This document shows, piece after piece, positions 13,946 through 29,213 of a DNA stretch of 42,452 bases. This DNA is from a virus. The position numbers were made by a program, and so were the translations under genes. The stretch spans positions 1 through 42,452 of the IMG/VR virus record IMGVR_UViG_3300042569_000885. One strand, written 5' to 3'. Under the pieces are notes generated by a model. That model was not told the origin of the DNA, did not search any database, and saw only the letters and a list, made by a program, of their open reading frames with translations. How positions within the stretch are numbered: position 1 is the stretch's first letter; the number at the start of each line of letters is the position of its first letter.

Positions 13946-15559
13946 TTATTTGGTCTCGTATGATCTAGCCATCGTAATGATAGCGTTAGTGGATAGAATA
14001 GTTGTCGCTACACTCACAGCGTTCTGCAACGCACTGCGTGTCACCTTTAGTGGGTCAATCACACCCATCTTAATCAGGTCACCCATCTGCCCGGTCTTTA
14101 GGTTGTACCCATGACCAATCGCAGTCCCCTCCTTATACACGTCACTTGGCTTTAGGCCAGCGTTTGCAAGGATCTGCTGGAATGGTGCCATCATCGCATT
14201 GGATAGGATCTTAATCGCCACACTTAGCTCAGGGCTATAGTGGAAGCTGCCAGTAGGAATGAGAGTAGCTGTCTCATCTAGCAATGCCTTGCCAGCCCCT
14301 GGTAGGATGCCCTCCTCCAACGCACTACGCACAGCACACACCGCATCATCAACCCGGTCGTACAACTCTTTTTGCTCCAGGTCAGTCTGCCCACCTACGT
14401 AGATTACACCGATGCCACCAGTAAGTGAAGCAATGCGCTCCAAAAGGTGGTCCTTGTCAGCCTTCTTCTTAGCAATCTTATGTGCCTGCCATAACTGTGC
14501 CACTCTATCCTCGACCTTCACAGTGTCGAGCTTGAGGTCAGACTTAAGGATAATGGTCTTGTCCTTACCCACCACCACTCTGGCCGCATGCCCTAGGTCA
14601 TCAATAGTGATCTGACTCAGGTCATCCCCGGTCTTCTCACTGAAGTATGTCGCTCCAACACTCACAGCCAGGTCTTGCATCAGCTCATGCTGCTTGTAAC
14701 CAAAGCTAGGTGGTTGCACCACGCACATCTTTAAGTTGTTCTTCATCACGTTTGCCGCCAATGTGTTGACCACGTTCACATGGCACGGTGACACAATTAG
14801 GAGCTTCTTCCCATCAGTAATGATTGGCTTTAGCACGTTCTCAATCTGTAAGATGTTACTGATCTCAATGTCAGCCACTAGCACCAGCACGTCCTCAAAC
14901 ACGCACTCATCTCTGCTCTGATCGTTGATGAACAATGGGCTTGTGTACCCCCTGTCAATCTTTAGGCCCTTAGTGGTCTCAGCATATGTCTCAGATGTCT
15001 GGCTACGCTCCACCGTTACAATGCCATTCTTGCCGACCTCCTTGTACACCTCAGCAATAATGCGACCGATCTGGCTGTCATTGTTCGCAGAGATAGTTGC
15101 CACGTCAAGCAGCATTGAGTTAGTCACCTTCTTGCCCTTCTTCTTTAACCCCTCAATCACTTTTGAACTCAGGTCAGAAATGTTACGCAGCACCTCAGTG
15201 GTATTGAGCTCAGTCTGTCCAGCACCAATGTGCTCCAACCATCCAAGCACCAACCCCTCAGTCAATACTATGGCAGTAGTCGTGCCATCACCAGCAGAGG
15301 TAGCTGTCCTATCAGCAGCCTCCTTCATCATCTTCACCGCTAGGTTCTCAACAGGATCAATCAAGTCAACCGCCTTAGCGACAGTCACCCCATCCTTCGT
15401 TACAGTAATGCCATGCGTGTGGTTAGGACTCTCAATAAGCACCGTGTTGCCATATGGCCCCAACGTACTCTTGACCGCTCCAGCAATCTTCTTGATGCCA
15501 GAGATCAACTTTAGCCTGCCCTCCTGGGCGAACACTAAATCTTTAGGTGAGTATTCCAT
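13946..15559 (-). CDS. groEL: Phage GroEL-type chaperonin, 537 aa
   Basis: A full-length group I chaperonin (bacterial GroEL is about 548 residues). Nucleotide-binding motifs are intact: STLGPYGNTV (residues 31-40), KDGVTV (55-60) and GDGTTTA (90-96, with the catalytic Asp). The C-terminal equatorial VDDAVCAVRSALEEGILPGA matches the GroEL VDDALHATRAAVEEGV region. The C-terminus ends RSYETK without the usual GGM repeat tail. The apical domain is strongly diverged. It should fold phage proteins, with the GroES-like protein at 10330-10587 as cap. The start follows an A/T-rich leader, and a promoter lies just upstream. The visibly higher GC content (59 of 120 in 13981-14100) suggests a different origin or selected codon use. 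Confidence 0.93.
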   Translation of the reverse strand: MEYSPKDLVFAQEGRLKLISGIKKIAGAVKSTLGPYGNTVLIESPNHTHGITVTKDGVTVAKAVDLIDPVENLAVKMMKEAADRTATSAGDGTTTAIVLTEGLVLGWLEHIGAGQTELNTTEVLRNISDLSSKVIEGLKKKGKKVTNSMLLDVATISANNDSQIGRIIAEVYKEVGKNGIVTVERSQTSETYAETTKGLKIDRGYTSPLFINDQSRDECVFEDVLVLVADIEISNILQIENVLKPIITDGKKLLIVSPCHVNVVNTLAANVMKNNLKMCVVQPPSFGYKQHELMQDLAVSVGATYFSEKTGDDLSQITIDDLGHAARVVVGKDKTIILKSDLKLDTVKVEDRVAQLWQAHKIAKKKADKDHLLERIASLTGGIGVIYVGGQTDLEQKELYDRVDDAVCAVRSALEEGILPGAGKALLDETATLIPTGSFHYSPELSVAIKILSNAMMAPFQQILANAGLKPSDVYKEGTAIGHGYNLKTGQMGDLIKMGVIDPLKVTRSALQNAVSVATTILSTNAIITMARSYETK

Positions 15560-15963: not shown

Positions 15964-15971
15964 CAAATATA
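15964..15971 (-). promoter_or_regulatory. -7 promoter element for the 96-residue gene
   Basis: Minus strand TATATTTG at 15971-15964, a perfect TAnnTTTG, 25 bases before the ATG at 15939. No TTG at the usual distance is seen; repeat element A starts 24 bases upstream. Confidence 0.5.
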
Positions 15972-15994: not shown

Positions 15995-16140
15995 CATGTC
16001 AAAGTTCTTCTTCCCTATATATATATATATACTTATTTATATATTATTATTTTTTTTAATTTTAAACCAGTTAAAAAATCGACATAATCTATCAGTAGAT
16101 TGAATATCAATTAGTTACGTGACATATTTTCGTACATCTC
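15995..16140. repeat. AT-rich intergenic element, copy A
   Basis: About 145 bases related to copy B at 25192-25335. Shared in order: CATGTCA; a 23-base identical stretch at 16011-16033 (25208-25230 in B) made of TTCCC, a TA run and CT; TTATATATTATTATTT; CGACATAATC; a TATCA-x-TAGTTAC-type stretch; then GACA[TC]ATTT and CG-ACAT. It has two GACAT units (16081, 16121). It lies upstream of the minus-strand 96-residue gene. An origin or regulatory function is possible. Confidence 0.75.
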
Positions 16141-16160
16141 ATGTTAGAAAATCTAACATG
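16140..16160. repeat. Perfect inverted repeat, operator-like
   Basis: CATGTTAGA-AAA-TCTAACATG: 9-bp perfect arms with a 3-base centre. It lies at the right end of repeat element A and 14 bases from a terminator hairpin. It has no T-run of its own, so it looks more like a protein-binding palindrome than a terminator. Confidence 0.6.
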
Positions 16161-16164
16161 AACA

Positions 16165-16417: not shown

Positions 16418-16598
16418 GTACAAATATAAGCATTTAGATGATAGGACTGATTGGGTAATACCGTAGGTTTTGCGTAGCGGACGAAAAACGGAAACGGATT
16501 TTTTTCGGCATGGGGGGGATGATGGCCTGACAGGTCCTTCTAGATTTTTTGGCTTTTTGCTACAGCCATGAATCCCAACAGCCATGATCAGTCCACAC

Positions 16599-16661
16599 CT
16601 ACCCACCTGCCTTCCTTCCTGCAATGATCCTACCTACCTGCCTGCCTTCATTCATGCAATG
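16599..16661. repeat. Imperfect direct repeat, about 30 bases, two copies
   Basis: Copy 1 (16599-16626) and copy 2 (16630-16661) both read CTACCYACCTGCCT followed by a CCTTC-rich stretch and TGCAATG. CCTN-type low complexity. Just before it GCCATGA occurs twice (16565, 16581). Not CRISPR-like (two copies, no proper spacers). Confidence 0.65.
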
Positions 16662-17250: not shown

Positions 17251-17439
17251 ATGGTAACTATTCAAAAAGTAATGGAAAAACACTACATAGTCAAGGTAGG
17301 AGATATGTACTTTGATTTGTACATAGACTTGAATGAAGATGGTAATTATGATTGCTTCTTTTTTGACGAATACATGGAAGCAAAAAGTATTAATGAACTA
17401 AAAAACAGAGTTAAAAAATTTATCACTAATCACAATTAA
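17251..17439 (+). CDS. Hypothetical early protein, 62 aa
   Basis: It starts MVTIQKVMEKHYIVKVGDMY and has an alternating beta pattern (YFDLYIDLNEDGNYDCFFFD) followed by a lysine-rich helix. First gene of the plus-strand early block, preceded by a structured leader and an A-rich TTGAAAC spacer. No family recognised. Such small acidic/basic proteins in early phage operons are often host-takeover factors, which is only contextual here. Confidence 0.65.
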   Translation: MVTIQKVMEKHYIVKVGDMYFDLYIDLNEDGNYDCFFFDEYMEAKSINELKNRVKKFITNHN

Positions 17440-17441
17440 TC

Positions 17442-17702
17442 ATGGAATTACAAGAAAACATGGAATGGCTAATGCAATGGTTTCCTGATGAAAATCACAT
17501 CAGAGGATTTGAGTTAGCAAAGAAAACTCCTCATAGTAAAAGCACTTCGTACCATTCGGGCGGAGGGTATACGCATCTGTTCTTACATCTAATGGATGGC
17601 AAGGTGATGGCGATACACTTTATGGATTTTGAGGTAGAAACCTCAGAGAAGAGTTTTGATACCTTAGAAAATTATCTTAATGAATGTTTTAACACTTACT
17701 AA
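17442..17702 (+). CDS. Hypothetical early protein, 86 aa
   Basis: It starts MELQENMEWLMQWFPDENHI and contains STSYHSGGGYTHLFLHLMDG, then KVMAIHFMDFEVE. A compact alpha/beta protein without membrane segments. It begins 2 bases after the preceding stop. Unknown function. Confidence 0.7.
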   Translation: MELQENMEWLMQWFPDENHIRGFELAKKTPHSKSTSYHSGGGYTHLFLHLMDGKVMAIHFMDFEVETSEKSFDTLENYLNECFNTY

Positions 17703-17703
17703 A

Positions 17704-17880
17704 ATGAAAAATGTAACTATTGAAGATTTGCAGTCATTCAATCGAGAGCAGTTAATCGAATGGCTTTGTTGGAATGACAGAAATGGTATCTACAGAGATG
17801 AAGATGCCATAGGTGAGGGATTCGATCCGTTAACATTAGAAGAGGCATTAGAAATAGCAACTGAACAAATAAAAGGGTAA
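17704..17880 (+). CDS. Hypothetical acidic protein, 58 aa
   Basis: The ATG at 17704, one base after the previous stop, gives MKNVTIEDLQSFNREQLIEW. The frame also permits an in-frame ATG at 17680 inside the previous gene, which is less likely. Acidic and helical, ending LEIATEQIKG. Its stop overlaps the next gene's ATG (TAATG). No family recognised. Confidence 0.65.
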   Translation: MKNVTIEDLQSFNREQLIEWLCWNDRNGIYRDEDAIGEGFDPLTLEEALEIATEQIKG

Positions 17881-17987
17881 TGAATAAGCAAGATGTAAAG
17901 GCATGGCTAATAGCCATAGCAGTCCTGGGGATTGCAGTTATTATAGGCAGTTATTTTGGAATTGAACTTGAAAAAACTATTTGGTAA
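17880..17987 (+). CDS. Small single-span membrane protein, 35 aa
   Basis: Found by hand. The ATG at 17880 overlaps the previous stop (TAATG), and the TAA is at 17985. It starts MNKQDVKAWLIAIAVLGIAV and continues IIGSYFGIELEKTIW. One transmembrane helix at residues 9-24, N-terminus inside. The next gene starts one base after its stop. Coupling on both sides supports it. Confidence 0.6.
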   Translation: MNKQDVKAWLIAIAVLGIAVIIGSYFGIELEKTIW

Positions 17988-17988
17988 A

Positions 17989-18207
17989 ATGAGACTATCA
18001 GAAGCAAGAGAACAAAAAGAAATTGCATTCGAAAAGGAATGTAGAAAAATGGGCAAAATAAATGCCATGAAAAAACAGATGATTGAAGAAACAATAAAGT
18101 CTGAATTGGAAAGGCTTTATCTGATATTAGATCTAAAGTATTACACAAATGCTAAGGCATCAATACAAAGATTAATAGAATTAAACGATAAATTATCCGA
18201 ACTATGA
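17989..18207 (+). CDS. Hypothetical coiled-coil protein, 72 aa
   Basis: The ATG at 17989 gives MRLSEAREQKEIAFEKECRK; the frame opens earlier (17956) only from a non-ATG codon inside the upstream membrane gene. It is mostly helical and charged (KKQMIEETIKSELERLYLIL) and likely coiled coil. The stop overlaps the next ATG (ATGA at 18204). No family recognised. Confidence 0.65.
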   Translation: MRLSEAREQKEIAFEKECRKMGKINAMKKQMIEETIKSELERLYLILDLKYYTNAKASIQRLIELNDKLSEL

Positions 18208-18305
18208 AAAATAAGATAACACTATTCGACATTTTCCAGGCAATCATCGCAATTGCATTAATTGGAGGATTCGGCTTTATGGTCGGAGTCCACATCCTAA
18301 AATAG
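18204..18305 (+). CDS. Small single-span membrane protein, 33 aa
   Basis: Found by hand. The ATG at 18204 is in an ATGA overlap, and the TAG is at 18303. It starts MKNKITLFDIFQAIIAIALI and continues GGFGFMVGVHILK. A hydrophobic helix from residue 11 to 29 has a GGFGF motif. Second tiny membrane protein in this operon. Unknown role. Confidence 0.55.
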   Translation: MKNKITLFDIFQAIIAIALIGGFGFMVGVHILK

Positions 18306-18347
18306 GCCATCTATGGAGCATGGAGGGAATCGTTTCCCCTCATGGCC
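18305..18347 (+). promoter_or_regulatory. Intercistronic hairpin
   Basis: GGCCAT (18305-18310) pairs with ATGGCC (18342-18347), enclosing AGGGAA-TCGT-TTCCC (18324-18338). It lies between the 33-residue gene and the next start; the stem contains the upstream in-frame ATG (18342). No T-run, so not a classic terminator; it may control message stability or translation. Confidence 0.5.
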
Positions 18348-18368
18348 TCAAACTTAAACCAAAAAAAT

Positions 18369-18542
18369 ATGGAACTCAAAAAAGGGGATAAAATCCAAAT
18401 CAAATTAAGGCAAGATGAAATCTATCAAGTAACTTTTGTTGATTATTCAACTACCAAAGGAATCGCTTGGGGAAAGTTCATTAATGCTGAAGGGGAAGTT
18501 CAAACCAAACCATTTTCTTTAAGCAGTATCATAAATAAATAA
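18369..18542 (+). CDS. Small beta-rich protein, 57 aa
   Basis: The ATG at 18369 follows a TTAAACCAAAAAAATATG leader that resembles the leader at 18780-18798. The ATG at 18342 lies in a hairpin stem and is less likely. The protein starts MELKKGDKIQIKLRQDEIYQ with strands (YQVTFVDYS, AWGKFIN), suggesting a small SH3-like or OB-like barrel. No family recognised. Confidence 0.65.
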   Translation: MELKKGDKIQIKLRQDEIYQVTFVDYSTTKGIAWGKFINAEGEVQTKPFSLSSIINK

Positions 18543-18554
18543 TCAAAATCTAAT

Positions 18555-18779
18555 ATGGAAAAAATCAATTTAGATGCTGAGTTCAGCACAAACCAGGCAA
18601 AGGCCAAACTTTTGATCATGATTCGTTCACTAGATGTTATGAGCGAAAATTTCGAAGAAAAATGCAGAGAATCTGCAAGAAAAAATTTCGAATCTGATAA
18701 CATGAAAAGATGTGAGGATCATTTCTTCCTATTTGCATCGGGCATGCCATCGGCTTTTGATAAACTATTCAAACTTTAA
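18555..18779 (+). CDS. Hypothetical helical protein, 74 aa
   Basis: It starts MEKINLDAEFSTNQAKAKLL. All-helical, charged, with two cysteines (CRESARKNFE, KRCEDHFF) and an end AFDKLFKL. No membrane segment. It lies 12 bases after the preceding gene in the early block. No family recognised. Confidence 0.65.
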   Translation: MEKINLDAEFSTNQAKAKLLIMIRSLDVMSENFEEKCRESARKNFESDNMKRCEDHFFLFASGMPSAFDKLFKL

Positions 18780-18797
18780 TTTAAACCAAAAAAAACT

Positions 18798-19076
18798 ATG
18801 AACATTTTTGAAAGTACAAAAAATCGATTTGGTTATTCAGATGCAATGAGCAAGTCAAATATTTGGGAGAGGTACGCAAATTACTTTGCGGGCGAAGAAA
18901 TCATAGAGGAGGGATTCAATCTTAACTCTGGGTATCTATACTTAGCATTAGAGAACGGTGTCACAATTGCATCATGCTTTGGTCAACCTGCTGAATTCTT
19001 TGTGTATGACGAAGAAACAGAGGAAGAAATATCTTTCTTATTCTATCAAGATTTACAAAATTATTTAAATAAATGA
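18798..19076 (+). CDS. Hypothetical acidic protein, 92 aa
   Basis: It starts MNIFESTKNRFGYSDAMSKS and has GYLYLALENGVTIASCFGQP, then an acidic EETEEEISF stretch. It is preceded by the A-rich leader TTTAAACCAAAAAAAACTATG typical of starts here. The stop overlaps the next ATG (ATGA). Unknown function; the charge suggests possible nucleic-acid mimicry, which is speculative. Confidence 0.7.
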   Translation: MNIFESTKNRFGYSDAMSKSNIWERYANYFAGEEIIEEGFNLNSGYLYLALENGVTIASCFGQPAEFFVYDEETEEEISFLFYQDLQNYLNK

Positions 19077-19222
19077 AAGCAGTAATCTATATGCGAGGGA
19101 TCTATGGAAGATCCTTCGCACAAACCAAAGAATTCAAAGACGATAAACATCTAGACAATTGGCTTGCCTGGATGGACAAAAATCAAGATAGAGTAAAAGT
19201 AATTGGAACAAAAATAATTTAA
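19073..19222 (+). CDS. Small hypothetical protein, 49 aa
   Basis: Found by hand. The ATG at 19073 is in an ATGA overlap and the TAA is at 19220. It starts MKAVIYMRGIYGRSFAQTKE, then FKDDKHLDNWLAWMDKNQDR and VKVIGTKII. A short beta-helix-beta layout with D-N-W-L-A-W-M-D. Stop and next start are 4 bases apart. No family recognised. Confidence 0.6.
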   Translation: MKAVIYMRGIYGRSFAQTKEFKDDKHLDNWLAWMDKNQDRVKVIGTKII

Positions 19223-19226
19223 GACT

Positions 19227-19508
19227 ATGGAAAATTTAATCAGAGAAAAATTAGTGGAGTACTACAGAGAGTGTAGTGTAGATAGGTACGGGCAAGTGGG
19301 AGTGATTCGAGCATACGATGTATTCAAAGATCAGACAGATGATGTGATGGAGTACGCTAAAGAAAATAAATCCTTGATAAATATATCAACCTATGGTGGT
19401 AGACTAGGTACATTCAGAGGTCTACAAATATTGGATTCAGATTTACAAAGTGAATGCAGAAATGCATTAAGAAATAATGAGAATTATGTATACGCAATGA
19501 CACATTAA
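19227..19508 (+). CDS. Hypothetical protein, 93 aa
   Basis: It starts MENLIREKLVEYYRECSVDR and contains VIRAYDVFKDQTDDVMEYAK. The end YVYAMTH precedes the next gene by 4 bases. Alpha/beta, slightly acidic; no signal or membrane segment. Unknown function. Confidence 0.7.
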   Translation: MENLIREKLVEYYRECSVDRYGQVGVIRAYDVFKDQTDDVMEYAKENKSLINISTYGGRLGTFRGLQILDSDLQSECRNALRNNENYVYAMTH

Positions 19509-19512
19509 TAAC

Positions 19513-19758
19513 ATGAACAAAACAGAATTCTTTAAAACGTATGGTCATCTGTTGGTAAAAGTTAACGAAGATGATGCTAGTACTGGGGACTACATGCTGT
19601 ACTATCCAGAGGAGAAACAAATTGCCAAAGATTATTTGGACAATGGGTACATGGTTGCCTCAGTTTTTGAGGTTGAGAATGAGGAAGACAATGTGTTGCT
19701 AGACAATGACATCAGCAATGCACACCACAAAATTGGACTACTAATATTAGAAAAATGA
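19513..19758 (+). CDS. Hypothetical acidic protein, 81 aa
   Basis: It starts MNKTEFFKTYGHLLVKVNED and includes GDYMLYYPEEKQIAKDYLDN, then an acidic stretch (ENEEDNVLLDND). The stop overlaps the next ATG (ATGA). No family recognised. Confidence 0.7.
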   Translation: MNKTEFFKTYGHLLVKVNEDDASTGDYMLYYPEEKQIAKDYLDNGYMVASVFEVENEEDNVLLDNDISNAHHKIGLLILEK

Positions 19759-19949
19759 AAGCACTACTAATTGCCCTATGCCTATGGGGATGTGATGACA
19801 AAATTAAAATTGAGAAAGCAGGTGATGTGGATGGTCGCAAGACCTACCACGTAAAGGTAGGTAAGCACACCTACGAGTATATGTATGCAGAAGAGATTGC
19901 CAATGCCTTGAAGACAGGTGATTGGGTATATAATGAGGACTTAAAATAA
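19755..19949 (+). CDS. Small protein, possible lipoprotein, 64 aa
   Basis: It starts MKALLIALCLWGCDDKIKIE. The hydrophobic start followed by LWGC-D-D resembles a short lipoprotein signal, but the tryptophan at -2 and the very short n-region are atypical. The mature part (GDVDGRKTYHVKVGKHTYEY, YAEEIANAL) is beta-rich. If exported it would be an envelope protein; otherwise a cytosolic small protein. ATGA overlap with the previous gene. Confidence 0.65.
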   Translation: MKALLIALCLWGCDDKIKIEKAGDVDGRKTYHVKVGKHTYEYMYAEEIANALKTGDWVYNEDLK

Positions 19950-19956
19950 AATAACT

Positions 19957-20517
19957 ATGCCTAATTGGTGTTCAAATGAAATCACAATTTCCGGAGACGT
20001 TACAAGGATTGTAGAGGCTCTGGAGTCTATTGAAAGTAAGCAAGAGAATAATGTATTCAAGACATTAATTGATGTCCCACAGGATGAGGACTGGTACAAC
20101 ACAAATCTAAAGTACTTTGGTACAAAATGGGATGTATCTTACTATGAATGTGATCCCCAAGAATTTGATGGAGGATTGGTGCTAATGCCCAATACTGCAT
20201 GGTCACCACCGATTGAGTTTGGTGTAAACTTAGCCAAGAAGTATGGTGTAGAAGTGGAGATGTACTACCATGAATCTGGCATGGATTTCTGTGGCAAGAC
20301 ATCTATCAACTCAGATGGAACATACACAGAGGAGGATTATGGATACATGGAGGGACTCTACAATTTTGATGCAGACTATTTCTGGGTAGAGATTGAGTCC
20401 TACATAGAGTACGCAAAAGAGGATGGACAATCTGTCGAGGAATTCCTAGAAGATTATGACTACTTACCTACTTATGACAAGAAAGAACTAACTAAAATAT
20501 ACAATGAAAGCCTTTGA
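19957..20517 (+). CDS. YubB/Api92-like (DUF1281) protein, 186 aa
   Basis: It starts MPNWCSNEITISGDVTRIVE, the hallmark N-P-N-W-C-x-N start of the DUF1281/Api92 and YubB ferredoxin-like family found on phages, plasmids and integrative elements. The middle (TKWDVSYYECDPQEFDGGLV, then NTAWSPPIEF) is the usual W-x-[PA]-P element. Compact alpha/beta domain, cytoplasmic. Family members accompany mobile DNA, but their role is not settled to my knowledge. It overlaps the next gene by 14 bases. Confidence 0.8.
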   Translation: MPNWCSNEITISGDVTRIVEALESIESKQENNVFKTLIDVPQDEDWYNTNLKYFGTKWDVSYYECDPQEFDGGLVLMPNTAWSPPIEFGVNLAKKYGVEVEMYYHESGMDFCGKTSINSDGTYTEEDYGYMEGLYNFDADYFWVEIESYIEYAKEDGQSVEEFLEDYDYLPTYDKKELTKIYNESL

Positions 20518-20728
20518 AATTAACACAACTGCATGGGATGAGGAGAACTTTGTAATCCTCACAGACTTGAATGAGATTCAAATTAAAAAAGTGATTGAGC
20601 CCATAGTTAATCGGGAGCGAGAGTATGGTGAGGAGTATACCAACGATACGCTCATCGATGCCCTATTGGATGCCTATCCAGAGAACCAATTCTATTCATA
20701 CACAACACCTAAACTAATCAGCATATGA
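20504..20728 (+). CDS. Hypothetical protein, tandem paralogue 1, 74 aa
   Basis: It starts MKAFEINTTAWDEENFVILT and ends LISI. It is homologous in outline to the protein at 20928-21149: W-[DE]-x-[ED] near residue 11, TxLxExxxxKVIEPIV-type middle (TDLNEIQIKKVIEPIV here, TTLTEENVRKVVEPMA there), and ALLDAYPEN against ALEDAYPKK. The two copies are separated by one gene, suggesting a small duplication. Unknown role; ATGA overlap with the next gene. Confidence 0.7.
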   Translation: MKAFEINTTAWDEENFVILTDLNEIQIKKVIEPIVNREREYGEEYTNDTLIDALLDAYPENQFYSYTTPKLISI

Positions 20729-20931
20729 GAACTATTGAAGGATTAGAGAACGACTTTCTCAGAAGTGAAATCAAGAGGCTCAAGGAGATCCGAGAGGATC
20801 AGGAGCAGATGTTGGTGGATGACATCTACCAGTGGATAATGTCCAACGAGGACATGGGCATGGGTGAATGTGCGGATGCACTATACGAGGCACAAAAAAT
20901 TGTACACAACTGGAAAAGAAAATGCAAATGA
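20725..20931 (+). CDS. Hypothetical helical protein, 68 aa
   Basis: It starts MRTIEGLENDFLRSEIKRLK and is helical throughout (EIREDQEQMLVDDIYQWIMS), with a methionine/glycine stretch (DMGMGE) and a basic end (HNWKRKCK). ATGA overlaps on both sides (20725 and 20928). No family recognised. Confidence 0.65.
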   Translation: MRTIEGLENDFLRSEIKRLKEIREDQEQMLVDDIYQWIMSNEDMGMGECADALYEAQKIVHNWKRKCK

Positions 20932-21149
20932 ATGTATTCAAATTAAAAATTAACAACTGGGAAGGTGACCAGTGTACCTTATACACCACCTTGACTGAGG
21001 AGAATGTAAGGAAGGTAGTAGAGCCAATGGCAAAGCAACATGAGGAGATGAATTATTTCATCGAGGACTACATCGTTGCATTGGAGGATGCATATCCTAA
21101 GAAATTAATCTTATCAAATTTAAGTGACACCATAACAATTCAACTATGA
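20928..21149 (+). CDS. Hypothetical protein, tandem paralogue 2, 73 aa
   Basis: The ATG at 20928 overlaps the previous stop (ATGA), giving MNVFKLKINNWEGDQCTLYT. The longer frame from 20868 is a shadow inside the upstream gene. It matches the protein at 20504-20728 in the central TxLTEExxxKVVEPM and DAYP segments. The stop overlaps the next ATG (ATGA at 21146). Unknown role. Confidence 0.7.
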   Translation: MNVFKLKINNWEGDQCTLYTTLTEENVRKVVEPMAKQHEEMNYFIEDYIVALEDAYPKKLILSNLSDTITIQL

Positions 21150-21556
21150 AAATTACAATCGAAGTAAATGTACCGGAGGATGTGGATTTAGATCACACCT
21201 ATCAGGCAGTAACAGATGCATTGTATCTGCCACGTAGTGTAACTCAAGCAGAGTATACACTAGTATCAAGTATCCTTAATCAGTTAGCATCAAAGAAGTC
21301 AAAGGATGTACTCAAGCATGGGTTCAGGGACTGGGCGGAGACTCACCATGAGGTGGTGTGTACCATCCATGCACTGATTGACAATGAAACAATACCATCT
21401 AGGCTACAAAATATCCTAGATACTGAGGGTACTGGTGGACTTTATGATCTAGGTATAGACTTGACAAATGACTTTGAGAATACCTATGTCGGAAGGGTAT
21501 GGGATGGAGACTGGATTGATACTATTATTGATTTTGTAAACGAAAAACTACAATGA
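21146..21556 (+). CDS. Hypothetical protein, 136 aa
   Basis: It starts MKITIEVNVPEDVDLDHTYQ. A beta start (ITIEVNVP) is followed by helices, including FRDWAETHHEVVCTIHALID, and ends WDGDWIDTIIDFVNEKLQ. No signal or membrane segment. Coupled to both neighbours by ATGA overlaps. I do not recognise a family. Confidence 0.7.
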   Translation: MKITIEVNVPEDVDLDHTYQAVTDALYLPRSVTQAEYTLVSSILNQLASKKSKDVLKHGFRDWAETHHEVVCTIHALIDNETIPSRLQNILDTEGTGGLYDLGIDLTNDFENTYVGRVWDGDWIDTIIDFVNEKLQ

Positions 21557-21747
21557 CACTAGAAGAAAGACTACGGATGTACCAGATGGTACATGGAATG
21601 AATGACAGACTGCTTTATCTGGATGAGAAAAGAAAGGCAAAGTTCATCAAAGCAATTGACTCATTGTTCACCAAGTACCCATGCCCCAGAGAGGTAAGGT
21701 ATGGATCAGAAGCAAGACTAAAGTATGGAAGCGAAGCGAATGTTTAA
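21553..21747 (+). CDS. Hypothetical protein, 64 aa
   Basis: It starts MTLEERLRMYQMVHGMNDRL. Helical, ending with a small repeat VRYGSEARLKYGSEANV (YGSEA twice). Its 3' end overlaps the next gene by 23 bases. Unknown role. Confidence 0.65.
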   Translation: MTLEERLRMYQMVHGMNDRLLYLDEKRKAKFIKAIDSLFTKYPCPREVRYGSEARLKYGSEANV

Positions 21748-21871
21748 TGTGTACTACTATGGCAACCTGTATGCAAGGTTGCTATGTACCACCAAGTGGG
21801 AGGCTATCGACAGGATTTGCAATGAGCATTACTGGTTAAATAGAAGTAAAGTTTCTGCAAAAAAAGATTGA
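21725..21871 (+). CDS. Small protein (FNVYYYGNLYAR type), 48 aa
   Basis: Found by hand. Two in-frame starts: ATG 21725 (MEAKRMFNVYYYGNLYARLL) or ATG 21740 (MFNVYYYG). The sequence continues CTTKWEAIDRICNEHYW and stops at 21869-21871. The N-V-Y-x-x-G-x-x-x-A-R-[LV]-[LI]-C-T-T-x-x-E-A-I-[DE]-R layout looks like short phage proteins I have seen in Bacteroidota phages. Last gene before a new promoter region. Confidence 0.6.
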   Translation: MEAKRMFNVYYYGNLYARLLCTTKWEAIDRICNEHYWLNRSKVSAKKD

Positions 21872-21898
21872 CATTGTCTATTTATTGTTTTATATTGT
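21868..21898 (+). promoter_or_regulatory. Candidate promoter inside the early block
   Basis: TTGACA begins at 21868, then TATATTGT at 21891-21898 after 20 bases. The -7 box departs from TAnnTTTG by a one-base shift. Its end is 22 bases before the ATG at 21920, the same distance as at 9888 and 11023. One of the few gaps in the otherwise overlapping early block. Confidence 0.35.
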
Positions 21899-21919
21899 AT
21901 CAAATTTAAATCAAATCTA

Positions 21920-22183
21920 ATGGAATATGACGAGAGTGAAGTATTTATCAATGAGGAAGTTGAGTTCAGCATTGATAATAAGGACTACCTATGGGTAGGA
22001 AGTTATGAGGTGCACCAGTATGGTGAGGAATCCACTTGGGATTCAATGGGAATCGGTGAGACTGAGATCAATATACTATCTACCATTCGCCTATGCGAAC
22101 ACGATGGTGATGATTGGTTTAACATCACACCCACAACAGATCATATGCATGGTCTTGTAGAACAAATAATCAAAAATTTATGA
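21920..22183 (+). CDS. Hypothetical acidic protein, 87 aa
   Basis: It starts MEYDESEVFINEEVEFSIDN and has DYLWVGSYEVHQYGEESTWD. Strongly acidic and beta-rich. The leader ATTTAAATCAAATCTA is typical for this genome. ATGA overlap with the next gene at 22180. No family recognised. Confidence 0.7.
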   Translation: MEYDESEVFINEEVEFSIDNKDYLWVGSYEVHQYGEESTWDSMGIGETEINILSTIRLCEHDGDDWFNITPTTDHMHGLVEQIIKNL

Positions 22184-22359
22184 GCGAGTTAGATGTTATG
22201 TTCACAGCTGGACTACTGGTTGTGTTGGCAAACTTTACCGTATCAAGAATGATCAGAAAAAGTGATGACTCTAACAAGGGTCATCAACTTCTGATTGAGG
22301 TGGCAAGTCTTGGACTGCTTATAGTATCATTTATTATTTATATAATTATAATATCATGA
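22180..22359 (+). CDS. Small two-span membrane protein, 59 aa
   Basis: Found by hand. The ATG at 22180 is in an ATGA overlap, and the TGA at 22357 overlaps the next ATG. It starts MSELDVMFTAGLLVVLANFT, has a charged loop (RMIRKSDDSNKG), then IEVASLGLLIVSFIIYIIII. Two transmembrane helices (residues 7-22 and 39-58). Coupled on both sides, upstream of the DnaA-like gene. Unknown role. Confidence 0.65.
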   Translation: MSELDVMFTAGLLVVLANFTVSRMIRKSDDSNKGHQLLIEVASLGLLIVSFIIYIIIIS

Positions 22360-22646
22360 AAATTGAAATCTTTAATAACTATTTAGAAAACATTATCAAA
22401 CTTTATTCCATCCCCATAGAGTGGATCTTCTCAAAGAATAAAAAGATGGAGGTAGTAGATGCAAGACACATGCTGTACTACCTGTGCTCAAAGAGAAACA
22501 TACCGGTGAGTTACATCCAGAGGTACATGGACATGAATGGGTATGTGATAGGTCACTCATCCATTATTCATGGGATCAAATCAATTGAGAATAAAGTACA
22601 AGCAGACGCAGACTATAAACAACTAATTAAAAATCTAGAAAAATGA
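22356..22646 (+). CDS. DnaA domain IV-like DNA-binding protein, 96 aa
   Basis: Residues 33-80 (VVDARHMLYYLCSKRNIPVS, then YIQRYM-G-VIGHSSIIHGIK) match the order of the DnaA C-terminal DnaA-box-binding domain: AR-x-x-x-[MY]-[YL]-L-x-x-x-x-x-x-S-[YF]-x-x-I-x-x-x-[MF] ... G-x-x-H-[ST]-[ST]-[IV]-I-H. No AAA+ ATPase part is present, so it is a stand-alone binder. It probably recognises specific DNA sites, perhaps at the phage origin. It precedes the annealase gene by an ATGA overlap. A second DnaA-like protein is at 31033-31488. Confidence 0.75.
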   Translation: MKIEIFNNYLENIIKLYSIPIEWIFSKNKKMEVVDARHMLYYLCSKRNIPVSYIQRYMDMNGYVIGHSSIIHGIKSIENKVQADADYKQLIKNLEK

Positions 22647-23263
22647 AATCAGAAAAATCAGTATTCGAAAGACTATCAGCCATCAATGTTAACGAGCATG
22701 TTGAGAAGAAGGACAACCTCACCTACCTATCATGGGCATGGGCATGGTCTGTGACTAAGAAGGAGTGCCCAGATGCATCTTATAAAATTTTGCCTACAGA
22801 GTACGATGATGACCTTGGATTCATGTGCCATAGCGAGGTGACTATTGAGGGTCAGACACTTGAGATGTGGTTGCCTGTCATGGATGGCAAGAACAAGAGC
22901 ATGAAAAAGAAGCCTTACTCCTACGCTACCAAGTACGGAGACAAGCAGGTGGATGCAGCAACTACGTTTGACATCAACAAGACAATGATGCGTTGCTTGG
23001 TTAAGAACCTAGCCATGTTTGGATTGGGCATCTACATCTACGCTGGTGAGGATCTTCCAGAGAGTGAGCCAAAGGTGGTAGAGGAGAGCAGACCTACAGC
23101 ACTGGTTACATTGGTGAAGGACAGTGATGATTGGAAGAAGGTGATAAAGTATGTGGCTGACAATAAGAGCAAGGGTCTGGCATTCATTGGCAAGCAGTTG
23201 AATACTAAGTATGACATGTCTGTAGAATTGAAGAAAGAAATAGCCGACTTGGTTAATGCTTAG
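22643..23263 (+). CDS. DUF1071 / Sak-type single-strand annealing protein, 206 aa
   Basis: It starts MKSEKSVFERLSAINVNEHV and has KKDNLTYLSWAWAWSVTKKE and, near residues 117-136, MRCLVKNLAMFGLGIYIYAG. The L-S-x-I-N-V-x-x-x-x-E-K-x-x-x-L-[TS]-Y-L-S-W-A-W-A-W ... M-R-C-L-[VT]-K-[NA]-[LI]-A-[ML]-x-G-L-G-L-Y-I-Y-A-G-E signature is the DUF1071 family, a Rad52-like phage recombinase group. It should anneal homologous single strands during phage recombination and replication. The neighbouring exonuclease at 24148-24879 would make such strands. A 4-residue overlap with the methyltransferase gene. Confidence 0.88.
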   Translation: MKSEKSVFERLSAINVNEHVEKKDNLTYLSWAWAWSVTKKECPDASYKILPTEYDDDLGFMCHSEVTIEGQTLEMWLPVMDGKNKSMKKKPYSYATKYGDKQVDAATTFDINKTMMRCLVKNLAMFGLGIYIYAGEDLPESEPKVVEESRPTALVTLVKDSDDWKKVIKYVADNKSKGLAFIGKQLNTKYDMSVELKKEIADLVNA

Positions 23264-24167
23264 ACATGGATCACTATTCAGTGGAATCGGGGGTTTTGAT
23301 TTGGCCTCCGATTGGATGGGATGGGAGAACGTGTTCCATTGTGAATGGAATCCATTCGGTCAGAGAGTCTTAAAATATTATTGGCCTAATTCAATATCAC
23401 ACAATGACATTACCAAGACAGACTTCTCTATTTACAGAGGAGAAATTGACATCATTACAGGAGGATTCCCATGTCAGCCCTACTCAACAGCAGGGAAGCG
23501 ACTCGGCAAGGAGGATAACAGACATCTCTGGCCTGAAATGCTTAGAGCAATTCGAGAAATCAAACCACGCTGGGTTGTGGGCGAAAACGTTCGTGGGCTT
23601 ATTAGTTGGAATGGAGGGATGGTATTCGAAGAGGTGCAAGTTGACCTGGAATCTGAAGGGTACGAAGTCCAACCGTTTATACTTCCAGCTGCAAGCGTCA
23701 ACGCTCCCCATCTTAGACAAAGAGTATGGTTCGTTGCCCACTCCATGTGCGTACGATTGGAACAGTCCAAAGAAACCGGAGACATTTCAGAAAGCAAAGG
23801 AAAGACATGCACTGAAGGGAGTAAATGTTCAGAATCCTTTGAAGCAAATGGCATCAATGGGAATGCTTCCTACTCCAGTATCATCGGACAAGAATGCAGG
23901 AAGGAGAGGGAACGCTCCGAGAGAGGGTCACAATCCCATGACAAACAGTTTGAAGGATGCAATAAATTACCAAGAGCAGACTTCGAAATGTTCCCATCTG
24001 TCCCCCCAATTTGTGATGGAGATGATGGGCTTTCCAGTAGACTGGACTCTATTACCTTTCCTAAATGGAGAAAAGAATCAATCATGGCAGGAGGAAATGC
24101 CATAGTACCACAGGTAGTCTATCAAATATTTAAAACTATAGAAAAATATGAACACAATAATCGATGA
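23256..24167 (+). CDS. dcm: C5-cytosine DNA methyltransferase, 303 aa
   Basis: Motif I SLFSGIGGFDLA (residues 6-17) binds S-adenosylmethionine. Motif IV GGFPCQPYS (69-77) has the catalytic Cys73. ENV at 110-112 is motif VI, RQRVWFV (154-160) motif VIII, and GGNAIVPQVVYQIF near the C-terminus motifs IX-X. Residues 165-265 are the target-recognition region, low-complexity and cysteine/serine-rich. It methylates cytosine at C5, likely to protect phage DNA. A second reading frame (23404-24105) is wholly embedded in the gene. It overlaps its neighbours on both sides. Orphan: no restriction endonuclease partner is seen. Confidence 0.92.
   Translation: MLRHGSLFSGIGGFDLASDWMGWENVFHCEWNPFGQRVLKYYWPNSISHNDITKTDFSIYRGEIDIITGGFPCQPYSTAGKRLGKEDNRHLWPEMLRAIREIKPRWVVGENVRGLISWNGGMVFEEVQVDLESEGYEVQPFILPAASVNAPHLRQRVWFVAHSMCVRLEQSKETGDISESKGKTCTEGSKCSESFEANGINGNASYSSIIGQECRKERERSERGSQSHDKQFEGCNKLPRADFEMFPSVPPICDGDDGLSSRLDSITFPKWRKESIMAGGNAIVPQVVYQIFKTIEKYEHNNR
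23404..24105 (+). CDS. Candidate overprinted protein inside the methyltransferase gene, 233 aa
   Basis: ATG at 23404, offset +1 from the methyltransferase frame, open for 234 codons including the stop. It starts MTLPRQTSLFTEEKLTSLQE and reads like a protein: WYSKRCKLTWNLKGTKSNRL, YGSLPTPCAYDW, then MGMLPTPVSSDK, and near the end LSPQFVMEMMGFPVDW. The repeated LPTP-x-x-x-D element and the L-[SN]-P-x-[FW]-V-x-x-[ML]-M-G-[FW]-P-x-x-[W] end match proteins I recall beside phage C5 methyltransferases. Those are sometimes annotated as methyltransferase-associated. It could be real, or an out-of-frame echo of a conserved methyltransferase gene. Minus-strand frames are also open here, so caution is needed. 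Confidence 0.5.
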   Translation: MTLPRQTSLFTEEKLTSLQEDSHVSPTQQQGSDSARRITDISGLKCLEQFEKSNHAGLWAKTFVGLLVGMEGWYSKRCKLTWNLKGTKSNRLYFQLQASTLPILDKEYGSLPTPCAYDWNSPKKPETFQKAKERHALKGVNVQNPLKQMASMGMLPTPVSSDKNAGRRGNAPREGHNPMTNSLKDAINYQEQTSKCSHLSPQFVMEMMGFPVDWTLLPFLNGEKNQSWQEEMP

Positions 24168-24879
24168 GCTCAGGGATGATGATGAGTACTACAATGGTAA
24201 GGGTAAGTACTACCTATCCAACTCAGACATCTATGCATTGCTCACAAATCCTAAGCGATTTAGAGCCCGATCAGAGGACTCAAAACACTTTCATGAGGGG
24301 AGACTATTCCATCAGTTAATTCTCGAGCCTGAGAAGGCTGTAAACGTGCCACAGGTGGATGTCAGTACACGTAATACAAAGGAGTACAAGAAGTACCTTG
24401 AAGATTATGGACTTGAGTTCGCTATGTTGACCAAGGAATACGATGAGATTGTTCGTCTTGCTAGTGTAATGAAGTCAAACTTCCAGTTCTACAATGACAT
24501 CTATAAGTATGGCAACCTATACGAGGAGCCAATCATTGGTGAGATTAAGGGACTGCAATGGAAGGCGAAGGCAGACATCGTTACTAGCGATTCAATCATT
24601 GATCTCAAGACTACATCAGACATCAACAAGTTCAGATGGTCTGCAAAGAGTTACAACTATGACTCTCAGTGCTACATTTACCAGCAATTATTTGGAAAAC
24701 CCCTATACTTTTACGTTATTGACAAGGAATCTGAGCAGCTTGGTCTGTTCAGACCATCCGAAGAGTTCGTGAAGGGCGGAGAAGCCAAGGTAGAGCGAGC
24801 AATGGAGGTATACTACAAGTACTTCGGACCAAATCCAACAGATGATATTGACAATTACTTTATAAACGAAACACTTTAA
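24148..24879 (+). CDS. PD-(D/E)XK exonuclease (RecE/DUF3799-like), 243 aa
   Basis: Residues 52-62 (RLFHQLILEPE) carry the early helical His motif of RecE/lambda-exonuclease-like enzymes. KADIV (141-145, Asp143) and IIDLKTT (150-156; Asp152-x-Lys154) form the PD-(D/E)XK metal centre, and QCYIYQQLFG (174-183) the conserved Q-x-x-x-Y helix. The start MNTIIDELRDDDEYYNGKGK overlaps the methyltransferase end by 20 bases. It should digest duplex DNA to give single strands for the DUF1071 annealase, making a two-component recombination pair. DUF3799-type assignment is from memory; the nuclease fold is well supported. Confidence 0.85.
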   Translation: MNTIIDELRDDDEYYNGKGKYYLSNSDIYALLTNPKRFRARSEDSKHFHEGRLFHQLILEPEKAVNVPQVDVSTRNTKEYKKYLEDYGLEFAMLTKEYDEIVRLASVMKSNFQFYNDIYKYGNLYEEPIIGEIKGLQWKAKADIVTSDSIIDLKTTSDINKFRWSAKSYNYDSQCYIYQQLFGKPLYFYVIDKESEQLGLFRPSEEFVKGGEAKVERAMEVYYKYFGPNPTDDIDNYFINETL

Positions 24880-24883
24880 TCAA

Positions 24884-25150
24884 ATGGAAAAGAAAGAAAC
24901 AATTTACGCAAACGGATTCGTAGCAAAGAGAACTGAAAAGGATCCAGACTTCATGGTAGTTAGACTATCAATCTCTAAAGATGATGCCATCGCATTCATC
25001 AACAAGCATGCAAATGCTGAGGGATGGGTCAACTTAGAGATTAAAAATGGTAGAGAGGCCGGCAAGTTTAACGTAACTCTCAATACCTATCAAGCTCCTA
25101 AGAAGAAGTACGATATGAATAAGGGGACTAAATGGGAGTCTCCGTTCTAA
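24884..25150 (+). CDS. Conserved small protein of the recombination cluster, 88 aa
   Basis: It starts MEKKETIYANGFVAKRTEKD. A beta-rich core (FMVVRLSISKDDAIAFINKH, NLEIKNGREAGKFNVTLNTY) ends in a basic, disordered tail (PKKKYDMNKGTKWESPF). I recall similar proteins next to annealase and exonuclease genes in Bacteroidota phages; single-strand-binding-like function is conceivable but unproven. It is the last gene before a strong terminator. Confidence 0.7.
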   Translation: MEKKETIYANGFVAKRTEKDPDFMVVRLSISKDDAIAFINKHANAEGWVNLEIKNGREAGKFNVTLNTYQAPKKKYDMNKGTKWESPF

Positions 25151-25156
25151 AAAATG

Positions 25157-25183
25157 GAGGGGGTAACTCCCCCTCTTTTTTTT
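25157..25183 (+). terminator. Strong intrinsic terminator of the early block
   Basis: GAGGGGG-TAACT-CCCCCTC: a perfect 7-bp stem (25157-25163 with 25169-25175) and 5-base loop, followed by eight Ts (25176-25183). It lies 7 bases after the stop at 25150 and ends the 17251-25150 unit. Confidence 0.9.
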
Positions 25184-25191
25184 CTCTAACC

Positions 25192-25335
25192 CATGTCATT
25201 TTTGCTTTTCCCTATATATATATATATACTACTTATATATTATTATTTCTTTGAATCTAAAAGGAAATTTAAATTGACATAATCGACATTGGGTTAATTA
25301 TCAGTAAGTTACACGACACATTTACGACATTCATC
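25192..25335. repeat. AT-rich intergenic element, copy B, with GACAT repeats
   Basis: Diverged copy of 15995-16140, sharing the 23 identical bases at 25208-25230 and the order of blocks after them. Copy B is richer in [TC]GACA[TC] units, at 25275, 25284, 25314, 25325, 25336 and 25345, the last overlapping the primase start codon. The 25314/25325/25336 units are exactly 11 bases apart, about one helical turn. This layout suits an iteron-type origin or a regulator site, upstream of the primase gene. Confidence 0.75.
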
Positions 25336-25343
25336 TGACATTT

Positions 25344-27734
25344 ATGACATATCAAGTAACAATATTCCAGAATATTAAGGAGACAAGTACCCCATTCCAT
25401 AGGAATATTGGTCTAATCCTAGAGCGAATTAAGTCTGGATCATCTAAAGATCTGGTTAAAAAAATCAGGGCAGAGAAGCGGAAGCCTGAGCGACAAGAAC
25501 TAAAGAAGCAGTTGCCTGCGATATGCTTCAGTGGTATATTCACCAAGCGATCCGATACCTCCATCACGGAGCATAGTGGTCTGATATGTTTGGACTTTGA
25601 TGGCTATCAAGGACAGAAGGAATTACTACAGGACAAGGAGAACTTGTCTAAGAACAAGTACGTCTACTCAGTATTCATCTCACCATCAGGCAATGGACTT
25701 AAGGTATTGGTAAAGATACCGGCAGACATAGACAATCACATCAACTACTTTAACAGCCTAGAGAAGTACTTCAAGAGCCAATACTTTGACAAGACTAGCA
25801 AGAACATATCACGTGTATGCTACGAGTCTTATGATCCACTCATCCATGTGAATGAGAACTCATCTGTATGGGACGTACTGGAGGAGCCAGAGTACACAGA
25901 GGTTAGCAAGTTCAAGGACAAGCCAACCATACCTATCACTGATGAGAACAAGGTGGTTGACATCTTGGTCAAGTGGTGGATGAAGAAGTACCCAATGGTG
26001 GAGGGACAGCGGAACCATAACGTGTACATCCTAGCGATGGCATTCAATGACTTCGGTATCAACAAGAGCCTTGCATCCTACGTGCTGAACCAGTACGCTA
26101 CGGAGGACTTTTCTATACGTGAGATAGGTATGACAATTGACTCAGCCTATCGGAACACCACCAACTTTGGTACCAAGTACTATGAGGATGAGGAGAAGAT
26201 TAACTCAATCAAGGCTAAGCTGAGAAGGGGTGTATCAAAAAAAGAGATACGTATCCAACTACAGGACTCCCAACTGGATACGGATACTATCGAAGCAGTA
26301 TTGACCAAGGTGGAGGAGGAGAATTCAAAGAAGACATTCTGGGAAAAGAGCGAGAAGGGAGTCATTCGAATAGTACACATTCAGTTCAAGCAGTTCCTTG
26401 AGGACAATGGATTCTATAAGTACTGCCCAGAGGGTAGCAAGAACTACGTGTTCGTGAAGGTTACCAACAATCTGATTGATCATACATCTGAGAAGGAGAT
26501 TAAGGACTACGTTCTGAACCACCTGCTTGAGTTGGATGACATCATGGTGTACAACTACTTCGCTGATCAGACTAGATTCTTTAAGGAAGAGTTCCTATCT
26601 ATGCTATCAACCATAGACATCTTCTTCATTGAGGACACCAAGGATACATCCTACCTGTACTACAAGAACTGTGCTGTGCAGGTAACCAAGGATGGGGTAA
26701 AGCCAATTGACTACATTGACTTAGGTGGATACGTGTGGAATGATCACGTGATTGACCGCAACTTTATCATGTGTGATGTCACAGATGCATGCAACTATAA
26801 GAAGTTTATACGAAACATCTGTGGGGATGATGATGGTAGGGTACAGGCGATGGAGAGTAACATAGGGTTCCTGATGCATGGCTACAAGAACCTAAGCTTC
26901 TGTCCGGCAGTGATCCTTAACGATGAAGTGATTAGCGACAACCCTGAGGGTGGCACAGGCAAGGGTCTGTTCATGAACGCACTGGGAAAGATGAAGAAGG
27001 TGGTAACAATTGATGGCAAGTCATTCACCTTTGAGCGGAGCTTTGCCTACCAGTTAGTGTCTGCCGATACGCAAATCCTAGTGTTCGATGATGTGAAGAA
27101 GTACTTTGAATTTGAGCGTTTGTTTAGTGTGGTAACTGAAGGCTTAACTCTGGAGAAGAAGAACAAGGATGCAATCAAGATCCCATTCAGCAAGTCTCCA
27201 AAGATTGCCATCACTACTAACTATGCCATCAAGGGATCTGGCAACAGCTTTGCAAGACGTAAGTCTGAGTTAGAGCTACACCAGTACTACTCCAAGTCAT
27301 TCACTCCATTGGATGAGTTTGGTAAGCTGATGTTTGGAGACTGGAACGATGATGACTGGTGTGAGTTTGACAACTACATGATTGGTTGCCTATCCAACTA
27401 CCTACATACAGGGATAGTAAAGAGTAATTTCGTGAACCTAAAGATTAGACAGCTATCTGCTGAGACTTCTCATGACTTTATCGAATGGTGTGGTCTGGTG
27501 GATGGTCAGCCTAAGAACAACACGCTGGAGCCAGAGGTAAGGCTGTACAAGAATGACTTGTACAATGACTTCGTCAACGAGTACCCTGACTACGGACCAA
27601 AGTCTAAGATGACAATCAGCAGGACTAAGTTCTACAAGTGGTTGGTATCCTACGGCATGTTCAAGTATGGTGTTGCACCTGAAGAAGGAAGAGACATGAT
27701 GGGAAGGTGGATCATAATTCATTCAAATGATTGA
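25344..27734 (+). CDS. VirE/BT4734-like primase with SF3-type helicase, 796 aa
   Basis: The N-terminal part (residues about 60-130) has LICLDFDGYQ (80-89) and SPSGNGLKVLVKI (113-125), typical of the BT4734-like/VirE N-terminal primase family of Bacteroidota elements. A central linker region follows. The C-terminal half has Walker A NPEGGTGKGLF (about residue 536), Walker B ILVFDD (about 577) and a KIAITTNYAIKG sensor element, as in superfamily 3/D5-type helicases. It should unwind and prime at the phage replication fork. The start ATG at 25344 lies inside the last GACAT unit. It overlaps the next helicase gene by 8 bases. Polymerase partner not seen in the window. Confidence 0.88.
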   Translation: MTYQVTIFQNIKETSTPFHRNIGLILERIKSGSSKDLVKKIRAEKRKPERQELKKQLPAICFSGIFTKRSDTSITEHSGLICLDFDGYQGQKELLQDKENLSKNKYVYSVFISPSGNGLKVLVKIPADIDNHINYFNSLEKYFKSQYFDKTSKNISRVCYESYDPLIHVNENSSVWDVLEEPEYTEVSKFKDKPTIPITDENKVVDILVKWWMKKYPMVEGQRNHNVYILAMAFNDFGINKSLASYVLNQYATEDFSIREIGMTIDSAYRNTTNFGTKYYEDEEKINSIKAKLRRGVSKKEIRIQLQDSQLDTDTIEAVLTKVEEENSKKTFWEKSEKGVIRIVHIQFKQFLEDNGFYKYCPEGSKNYVFVKVTNNLIDHTSEKEIKDYVLNHLLELDDIMVYNYFADQTRFFKEEFLSMLSTIDIFFIEDTKDTSYLYYKNCAVQVTKDGVKPIDYIDLGGYVWNDHVIDRNFIMCDVTDACNYKKFIRNICGDDDGRVQAMESNIGFLMHGYKNLSFCPAVILNDEVISDNPEGGTGKGLFMNALGKMKKVVTIDGKSFTFERSFAYQLVSADTQILVFDDVKKYFEFERLFSVVTEGLTLEKKNKDAIKIPFSKSPKIAITTNYAIKGSGNSFARRKSELELHQYYSKSFTPLDEFGKLMFGDWNDDDWCEFDNYMIGCLSNYLHTGIVKSNFVNLKIRQLSAETSHDFIEWCGLVDGQPKNNTLEPEVRLYKNDLYNDFVNEYPDYGPKSKMTISRTKFYKWLVSYGMFKYGVAPEEGRDMMGRWIIIHSND

Positions 27735-29094: not shown

Positions 29095-29103
29095 ATAGGG
29101 TTA

Positions 29104-29111
29104 TATGTTTG
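29104..29111 (+). promoter_or_regulatory. -7 promoter element before the tRNA-like sequence
   Basis: TATGTTTG at 29104-29111, a perfect TAnnTTTG. No clear TTG at the usual distance (TTA at 29081). Predicted start near 29117, about 27 bases before the tRNA-like sequence, with a small imperfect hairpin (GCTA...TAGC) in between. Confidence 0.4.
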
Positions 29112-29143
29112 GGTCGCTAGTGCCTACCAACAGTAGCAAACTT

Positions 29144-29213
29144 AGTCAGGTGGCGGAATAGAGGAAGACGCAGGCCAATAGGTCTGTTACAGGTTCGAAT
29201 CCTGTCCTGACTA
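29144..29213 (+). tRNA. tRNA-like element, Leu-type body without room for an anticodon
   Basis: Acceptor AGTCAGG (29144-29150) pairs with CCTGACT (29206-29212), followed by A. The T-arm is canonical: ACAGG-TTCGAAT-CCTGT (29189-29205). The D-arm TGGCGGAA...GACGC (29151-29171) looks like tRNA-Leu. The anticodon arm AGGCC-AATA-GGTCT (29172-29185) has a 5-bp stem and only a 4-base loop, so the usual 7-base loop and a normal anticodon are missing. The variable loop is 3 bases and the total is 70 bases, short for tRNA-Leu (about 85). The remainder is not CCA-encoded. It cannot decode normally if this fold is right; it may be a degenerate gene or a tRNA mimic. Confidence 0.6.

Follow-up and report, generated by a model that had tools for sequence, protein, structure and literature searches.

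The window analysed here is the full 42,452-base virus record IMGVR_UViG_3300042569_000885, the whole record being this same fragment; judged against its relatives, it is a fragment of a podovirus-like genome of ~60 kb. Late genes in the window run leftward and early genes (17251–31640) rightward. Two similar intergenic stretches, hereafter copy A and copy B, lie 9.2 kb apart (Table 1). Copy A is found near a phage groEL gene (13946–15559; phrog_5725, E 8e-132) that also stands left of A in the genomes checked, and copy B has a terminator-like hairpin, belonging to the upstream operon, on its left and a primase start codon on its right. An apparent DNA cytosine methyltransferase (23256–24167, with a PCQP motif in its sequence) is encoded between the genes for a Sak annealing protein and an exonuclease, and the minus strand carries a 3059-aa ORF (31637–40816) whose location corresponds to that of the giant structural protein in MW202828 and Elemovirus. 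The non-coding DNA that separates A from the first of the rightward early genes contains short tandem-like CCTACCTGCCTTCC repeats (16597–16661).

An earlier note on this DNA had described two similar, non-coding stretches in the same orientation that share 23 identical bases around a TA run. Both were recovered: blastn aligned A and B with 105/138 identities (76%, 3 gaps) in the same orientation, the 23-mer TTCCCTATATATATATATATACT is common to the two, and no plausible gene was seen over either copy in the window. The 21-base core of this 23-mer, CCCTATATATATATATATACT, occurs exactly twice in the window versus 0.01 expected. Local alignment of A with B scored 72, compared with 19 ± 3.1 (maximum 37) in 1000 dinucleotide shuffles (z about 17), and the next best place in the window scored only 25. 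When the TA run was deleted from both copies the score was 56, versus 14 ± 2.5 (maximum 26) in mononucleotide shuffles; because the score stays high after this deletion, the similarity amounts to more than the TA run. Both copies are AT-rich and each contains a TA run, as chance similarity of AT-rich intergenic DNA would have it, but the strength of the signal over shuffles and the retention of the element in dozens of divergent genomes leave that explanation with a negligible probability, and it was rejected, together with a TA-run-only reading, by the shuffle tests with and without the run. The earlier note had allowed for a chance TA/T run lacking conserved flanks and for related phages lacking the element; instead, the similarity survived removal of the run and the element was kept in relatives. 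Its further statement that the copies bracket the whole early block holds for the first half of that block only, since 25344–31640, to the right of B, is also early.

The nearest named relative of the window is MW202828.1 (Podoviridae sp. ctfjg026); this metagenomic genome is circular, 60,850 bp long, and its primase shows 79% identity. A primase search returned 296 relatives, with 80 loci kept, and ~400 relatives were reported overall. Megablast of nearby DNA against the phage collection gave no match, and the only host clue from genome bins consisted of MAG contigs that looked mis-binned. The clade consists of uncultured phages of ~60 kb that form a large family, and no close cultured member of it was found here; Elemovirus (cultured, Flavobacterium) is a distant relative with a similar general gene order.

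A profile built from the 175 bp upstream of primase identified the element in almost every locus having that region, with a second copy 8.5–10 kb upstream where the flank was long enough. Using a sequence-only model, two same-strand copies were present in 33/36 whole records, and the three single-copy records (G003, G009 and G020) are 33–46 kb contigs ending 7–10 kb upstream of B. MW202828 carries exactly two copies (42615–42785 and 53548–53720), neither of them annotated in its record, with copy A partly under an annotated hypothetical protein. The element was also found in 76/79 loci of a second sample, collected via the DnaA-IV protein. Nothing significant was obtained with the element profile in Elemovirus (NC_055853). 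Iterons at the B position of three loci (L222, L223 and L226) were too divergent for the profile, and copy A was not found in L222 and L226. The iterons upstream of primase in these three loci read TTAACACA/CCAACACA, a drift toward a CACA-ending, more DnaA-box-like unit.

Read from the left, the element opens with a GACAT unit in inverted orientation, followed by a TA/T-rich core, a pair of direct GACAT units, an IHF-like block (WATCARNNNNTTR) and more GACAT units. The left part in relatives consists of the inverted unit (two in many of them), CCCTATATATAT or a CT-rich run, and TTATTATT/T tract, followed on the right by AAAATTGACATAATCGACAT (two direct units ~9 bp apart), TTAATAATCAATNAGTTA and AAAATCGACATAAAATCGACAT, in which the unit spacing is 11 bp. 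Both copies conserve one arrangement: the core, a first iteron group, the IHF-like block and a second iteron group.

Table 1. Features of the two element copies and of the associated genes in the window.
Feature	Position	Strand	Basis
Bacteroidota-type −7 promoter box TATATTTG, outside copy A, for the operon running leftward on the groEL side	15964–15971	−	sequence
Copy A, origin-like element, intergenic, upstream of leftward groEL operon	15995–16138	+	blastn, 76% to B; profile, E 1e-16 and 3.2e-20
Copy A inverted GACAT unit (CATGTCA), left of core	15995–16001	−	sequence; alignment of A copies
Copy A TA/TTATT/T-rich core, putative duplex-unwinding element	16011–16062	.	overlaps least stable 100 bp of window
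Copy A iteron AATCGACAT; degenerate second unit CTATCAG at about +9	16077–16085	+	sequence, unit spacing, word enrichment
Copy A IHF-like site TATCAATTAGTTA	16105–16117	+	strict match to WATCAANNNNTTR
Copy A downstream iterons: TGACAT at 16120; CGTACAT, degenerate	16120–16135	+	sequence
Stand-alone DnaA domain-IV protein, 96 aa, paralog 1, candidate iteron binder	22356–22646	+	Bac_DnaA_C, predicted fold
Copy B, origin-like element, ends at primase start codon	25192–25344	+	blastn, profile
Copy B inverted GACAT unit (ATGTCA)	25193–25198	−	unit scan
Copy B TA/TTATT/T-rich core, putative duplex-unwinding element	25208–25250	.	stability calculation
Copy B two direct iterons, TGACAT (25275) and CGACAT (25284), 9 bp apart	25275–25289	+	unit scan
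Copy B IHF-like site TATCAGTAAGTTA	25299–25311	+	relaxed consensus WATCARNNNNTTR
Copy B downstream iterons: CGACAC 25314, CGACAT 25325, TGACAT 25336 (11-bp steps), TGACAT 25345	25314–25350	+	unit scan, sequence
Primase-helicase gene, candidate initiator/replicase directly behind B	25344–27734	+	Pfam BT4734-like_N, weak PriCT_1, DUF5906; phrog_28855 and primase/helicase families
Second DnaA-domain-IV-like protein, paralog 2, end of early region	31027–31488	+	Bac_DnaA_C in 22/30 members; hhalign to paralog 1, 96.8%

The most enriched 7-mers obtained de novo were AATCGAC, CGACATA, TCGACAT and ATCGACA (128- to 156-fold in elements), and AATCGACAT-type words were enriched ~130–150-fold. GACAT units occurred at 14.5 per kb inside elements versus 0.53 per kb outside, and successive units were spaced almost only 9 to 12 bp apart, chiefly 9 and 11. 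The units are therefore direct repeats in helical phase, as in iteron origins, and would be putative initiator sites. A strict IHF consensus, WATCAANNNNTTR, was matched by 29/48 A and 26/71 B copies and never on the opposite strand; with the relaxed consensus these counts rose to 39/48 and 54/71, against a background of 0.12–0.18 per kb. This conserved + strand block, which had escaped the earlier note, would represent the IHF/HU-type accessory site of an iteron origin in most copies. In 14/17 genomes, the 100-bp stretch with the lowest stability of all fell within A or B, which places an A+T-rich, easily melted region next to the iterons. The suggestion that AT-rich DNA with GACAT units resembles a replication origin or a regulator-binding region is thus borne out as regards the conservation, direct repetition and helical spacing of the units and the instability of the core; the choice between origin and regulator is one that we infer.

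Canonical DnaA boxes (TTWTNCACA), which cluster in oriC-type origins, were not found in the elements, and the identity of iteron TAATCGACA with the DnaA box TTATCCACA at 7/9 positions is a resemblance only. At the right edge of A lies a perfect inverted repeat, TCATGTTAGA-AAA-TCTAACATGA (16139–16162), whose counterpart in close relatives is imperfect and has one arm with an inverted GACAT-type unit. In two other loci (L220 and L244) a tRNA-like sequence (AGCTCAATTGGATAGAGCAAC...) is situated directly right of copy A.

In essentially all genomes checked, copy A had leftward groEL on one side, immediately adjacent or with a single small ORF in between, and on the other side a short ORF that also runs leftward. 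It is antiparallel to both, while copy B is parallel to its downstream gene. Since the element keeps the same orientation at A and B and the genes there face opposite ways, promoter function alone provides no explanation. The GACAT units could be operators through which a phage regulator controls the groEL operon from A and the primase operon from B; the TA-rich DNA would then ease promoter opening, and neither place would have origin function. Such a role would suit a copy B whose right end coincides with the primase start codon and whose iterons overlap it (one lies inside the primase start region; Table 1), and a copy A positioned just upstream of the leftward groEL operon, and promoters too can carry IHF sites and operators. 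However, the motif TAnnTTTG, which is the −7 promoter box of Bacteroidota, was nearly absent from the + strand inside elements, where a promoter for the downstream gene would be expected to carry it (0/48 A, 4/71 B), and not enriched there; at A it was found outside the element, in the left (groEL-side) flank of 29/48 distinct copies. A least-stable core combined with iterons and an IHF block is, furthermore, the pattern of an origin. On balance, we regard a purely regulatory pair as unlikely.

The cumulative GC skew, a check proposed in the earlier note, reached its minimum 0.2–2 kb right of A in 17/17 genomes. This agrees with A, but the skew tracks the coding strand (it is positive over + genes at 11–12 kb) and A adjoins the late/early divergence. 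Because skew follows gene direction, it does not constitute independent evidence and was rejected as independent proof of an origin.

Within one genome, A and B are only ~55–74% alike. A copies are nearer to other A copies and B copies to other B copies, with one clear exception (G023). This grouping led us to reject concerted evolution, by which A and B would stay near-identical, and indicates that the two are separate old lineages, both retained. The iteron differs in divergent members, and there the A and B of one genome tend to have the new variant in common (AGCAT/AACAT in L228, GACAG in G030 and AACAT in L240). Iteron-type similarity within genomes was 0.796 versus 0.721 ± 0.018 for mismatched pairs (53 genomes; permutation p 2e-4), a result that is inflated by phylogeny and in which a few records entered twice as overlapping loci. 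Joint iteron change in otherwise separate lineages is the pattern expected from one shared binding protein.

The two copies also differ in composition. Inverted units per copy averaged 1.8/0.8 in the left/right flanks of A versus 0.8/0.1 in those of B, with many A copies having extra inverted units on both flanks and B being richer in direct units beside its gene. These differences, along with the position of A at the skew minimum, could mean that only A or only B is an origin and that the other copy is a locus of control, acting on the initiator by titration or pairing and so limiting or timing initiation; the incA-type control iterons of plasmids are a model for such a locus. Nevertheless, no part is missing from either copy, core and IHF-like block included, and a titration locus would need no low-stability core. 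We treat this arrangement, which overlaps with the reading preferred below, as a real possibility, though not the leading one.

Contig starts of six loci (L012, L014, L016, L021, L023 and L078) fell within 250 bp upstream of primase, inside B, i.e. 6/80 loci versus ~1 expected from the other upstream ends; the cluster probably results from assembly breaks at the TA run, although it may reflect physical DNA ends. A recombination or packaging site, e.g. a direct-repeat resolution pair or a pac/cos region, might be read from these contig ends, from the arrangement of the elements as direct repeats with Sak and exonuclease genes between them, and from the IHF-like sites that attP and cos also hold. 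However, copies as dissimilar as A and B would be poor substrates for homologous resolution, both copies and the intervening early genes were kept in nearly all sampled records, and the terminase is far off in MW202828. A function of this kind is very improbable.

Candidate binders of the element are encoded nearby. The primase-helicase directly behind B belongs to the BT4734/DUF5906 family, which has been treated among the archaeo-eukaryotic primases (PMC5862659). Paralog 1 of the DnaA-domain-IV proteins was present in 38/38 loci with at least 9 kb of upstream DNA, and Pfam Bac_DnaA_C was matched by 29/29 of its members (best 8.7e-11), the window's own protein scoring 29.9 bits, just below the 31.5 cut-off. 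Its PDB relatives are DnaA, and its confidently predicted model (pLDDT 94), computed from proteins of the window and of the retrieved loci only, matched 1j1v, a structure of DnaA domain IV in complex with a DnaA box, at a TM of 0.78. The recognition motif of paralog 2 (family consensus KKDHSTIIHY) is degenerate in the window. No Pfam match to an AAA+ domain III, which a DnaA initiator should have, was obtained in the DnaA-IV proteins (96 and ~160 aa).

Iterons, an A+T-rich core and an IHF-like site are the recognised make-up of a replication origin (PMC5043065, PMC10380432). Because helical iterons, an IHF-like bend site, the least-stable core, an adjacent replication gene and a DnaA-type protein occur together, we consider it likely that A and B are an iteron/IHF/DUE replication origin present twice, with the missing origin-opening AAA+ domain of the DnaA-IV proteins, the lack of canonical DnaA boxes, the strongly divergent B-position iterons of L222, L223 and L226 and the negative result in Elemovirus counting against it. 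The two elements would then most probably specify the place at which copying of the phage DNA starts and have a part in its timing. One or more phage DNA-binding proteins would bind the direct, 9/11-bp-spaced (A)ATCGACAT units, and the WATCARNNNNTTR block that separates the iteron groups would be occupied by a host bending protein of IHF/HU type. The neighbouring TA/T-rich core would lose stability through this binding and bending, and the BT4734/DUF5906 primase-helicase of the phage would be loaded there. As iteron binder, one or both of the stand-alone DnaA-domain-IV proteins (paralogs 1 and 2) are most likely, with the primase as second choice. As regards a division of work, copy B probably also autoregulates primase, given that it overlaps the start of that gene, and copy A appears the better candidate for the main origin since it lies between groEL and a short ORF that both face the other way.

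We do not file the elements as a DnaA/oriC system, because canonical boxes are absent and the proteins are without an AAA+ domain. A more specific proposal, which we put forward tentatively and think somewhat unlikely, is a split DnaA system: two complete, separately maintained origins read by DnaA-IV proteins that use the (A)ATCGACAT-type iteron instead of the DnaA box, with AAA+ opening activity coming from the primase-helicase or from host DnaA.

The left half of E. coli oriC contains a DUE, DnaA boxes, the IHF site IBS1 and further DnaA boxes (PMC10380432). The element likewise has an AT-rich TTATT core, binding repeats, an IHF-like site and further repeats in the same orientation, with a DnaA-domain-IV gene nearby; unlike oriC, it is phage-borne, present in two copies and built on (A)ATCGACAT iterons, and the DnaA-like proteins are without domains I–III. 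Iteron plasmid origins (P1, F, RK2, pSC101, R6K; PMC5043065) share with it the helical-phase direct repeats, the adjacent A+T-rich region, the assistance of IHF/HU and, at copy B, a location just upstream of a replication gene with likely autoregulation. They differ in that, as far as seen here, no RepA/pi/TrfA-type initiator accompanies the element, its short iteron groups are split by the IHF-like block, and two complete copies lie 9–15 kb apart. The lambda-type origin resembles it in placing initiator-binding repeats beside an A+T-rich unwinding region in a phage. Lambda iterons lie within the O gene, whereas the duplicated element is intergenic, and no O-like protein was recognised among the proteins scanned. 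In lambda, dimers of O bind to iterons that have the form of inverted repeats (PMC5043065).

Among phages, MW202828 shares both element copies, the gene order and a DnaA-IV protein, annotated there as 'dnaA', in addition to its similar primase. Elemovirus resembles the clade in its size (~60 kb), giant structural protein, groEL/groES and terminase/portal order, and its primase is related over the N-terminal 300 aa, but no copy of the element was detected in it, its primase annotation is of TOPRIM type and it gave no match to the DnaA-IV protein.

Iteron origins in phages are of a known kind. Among open-access papers, no literature was found that describes this clade's origin or a stand-alone DnaA-IV protein from phages like these, and what appears to be new is the clade-wide retention of two complete copies together with one or two DnaA-domain-IV-only proteins, for which we found no description. 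Few environmental phages have a known replication origin, and in this case a specific, testable candidate module, two per genome across a clade, follows from nothing more than sequence. The finding raises the questions of what role a DnaA DNA-binding domain without its ATPase may have in the start of replication, and why there would be two origins, and the module would make it possible to try out autonomously replicating constructs for these phages.
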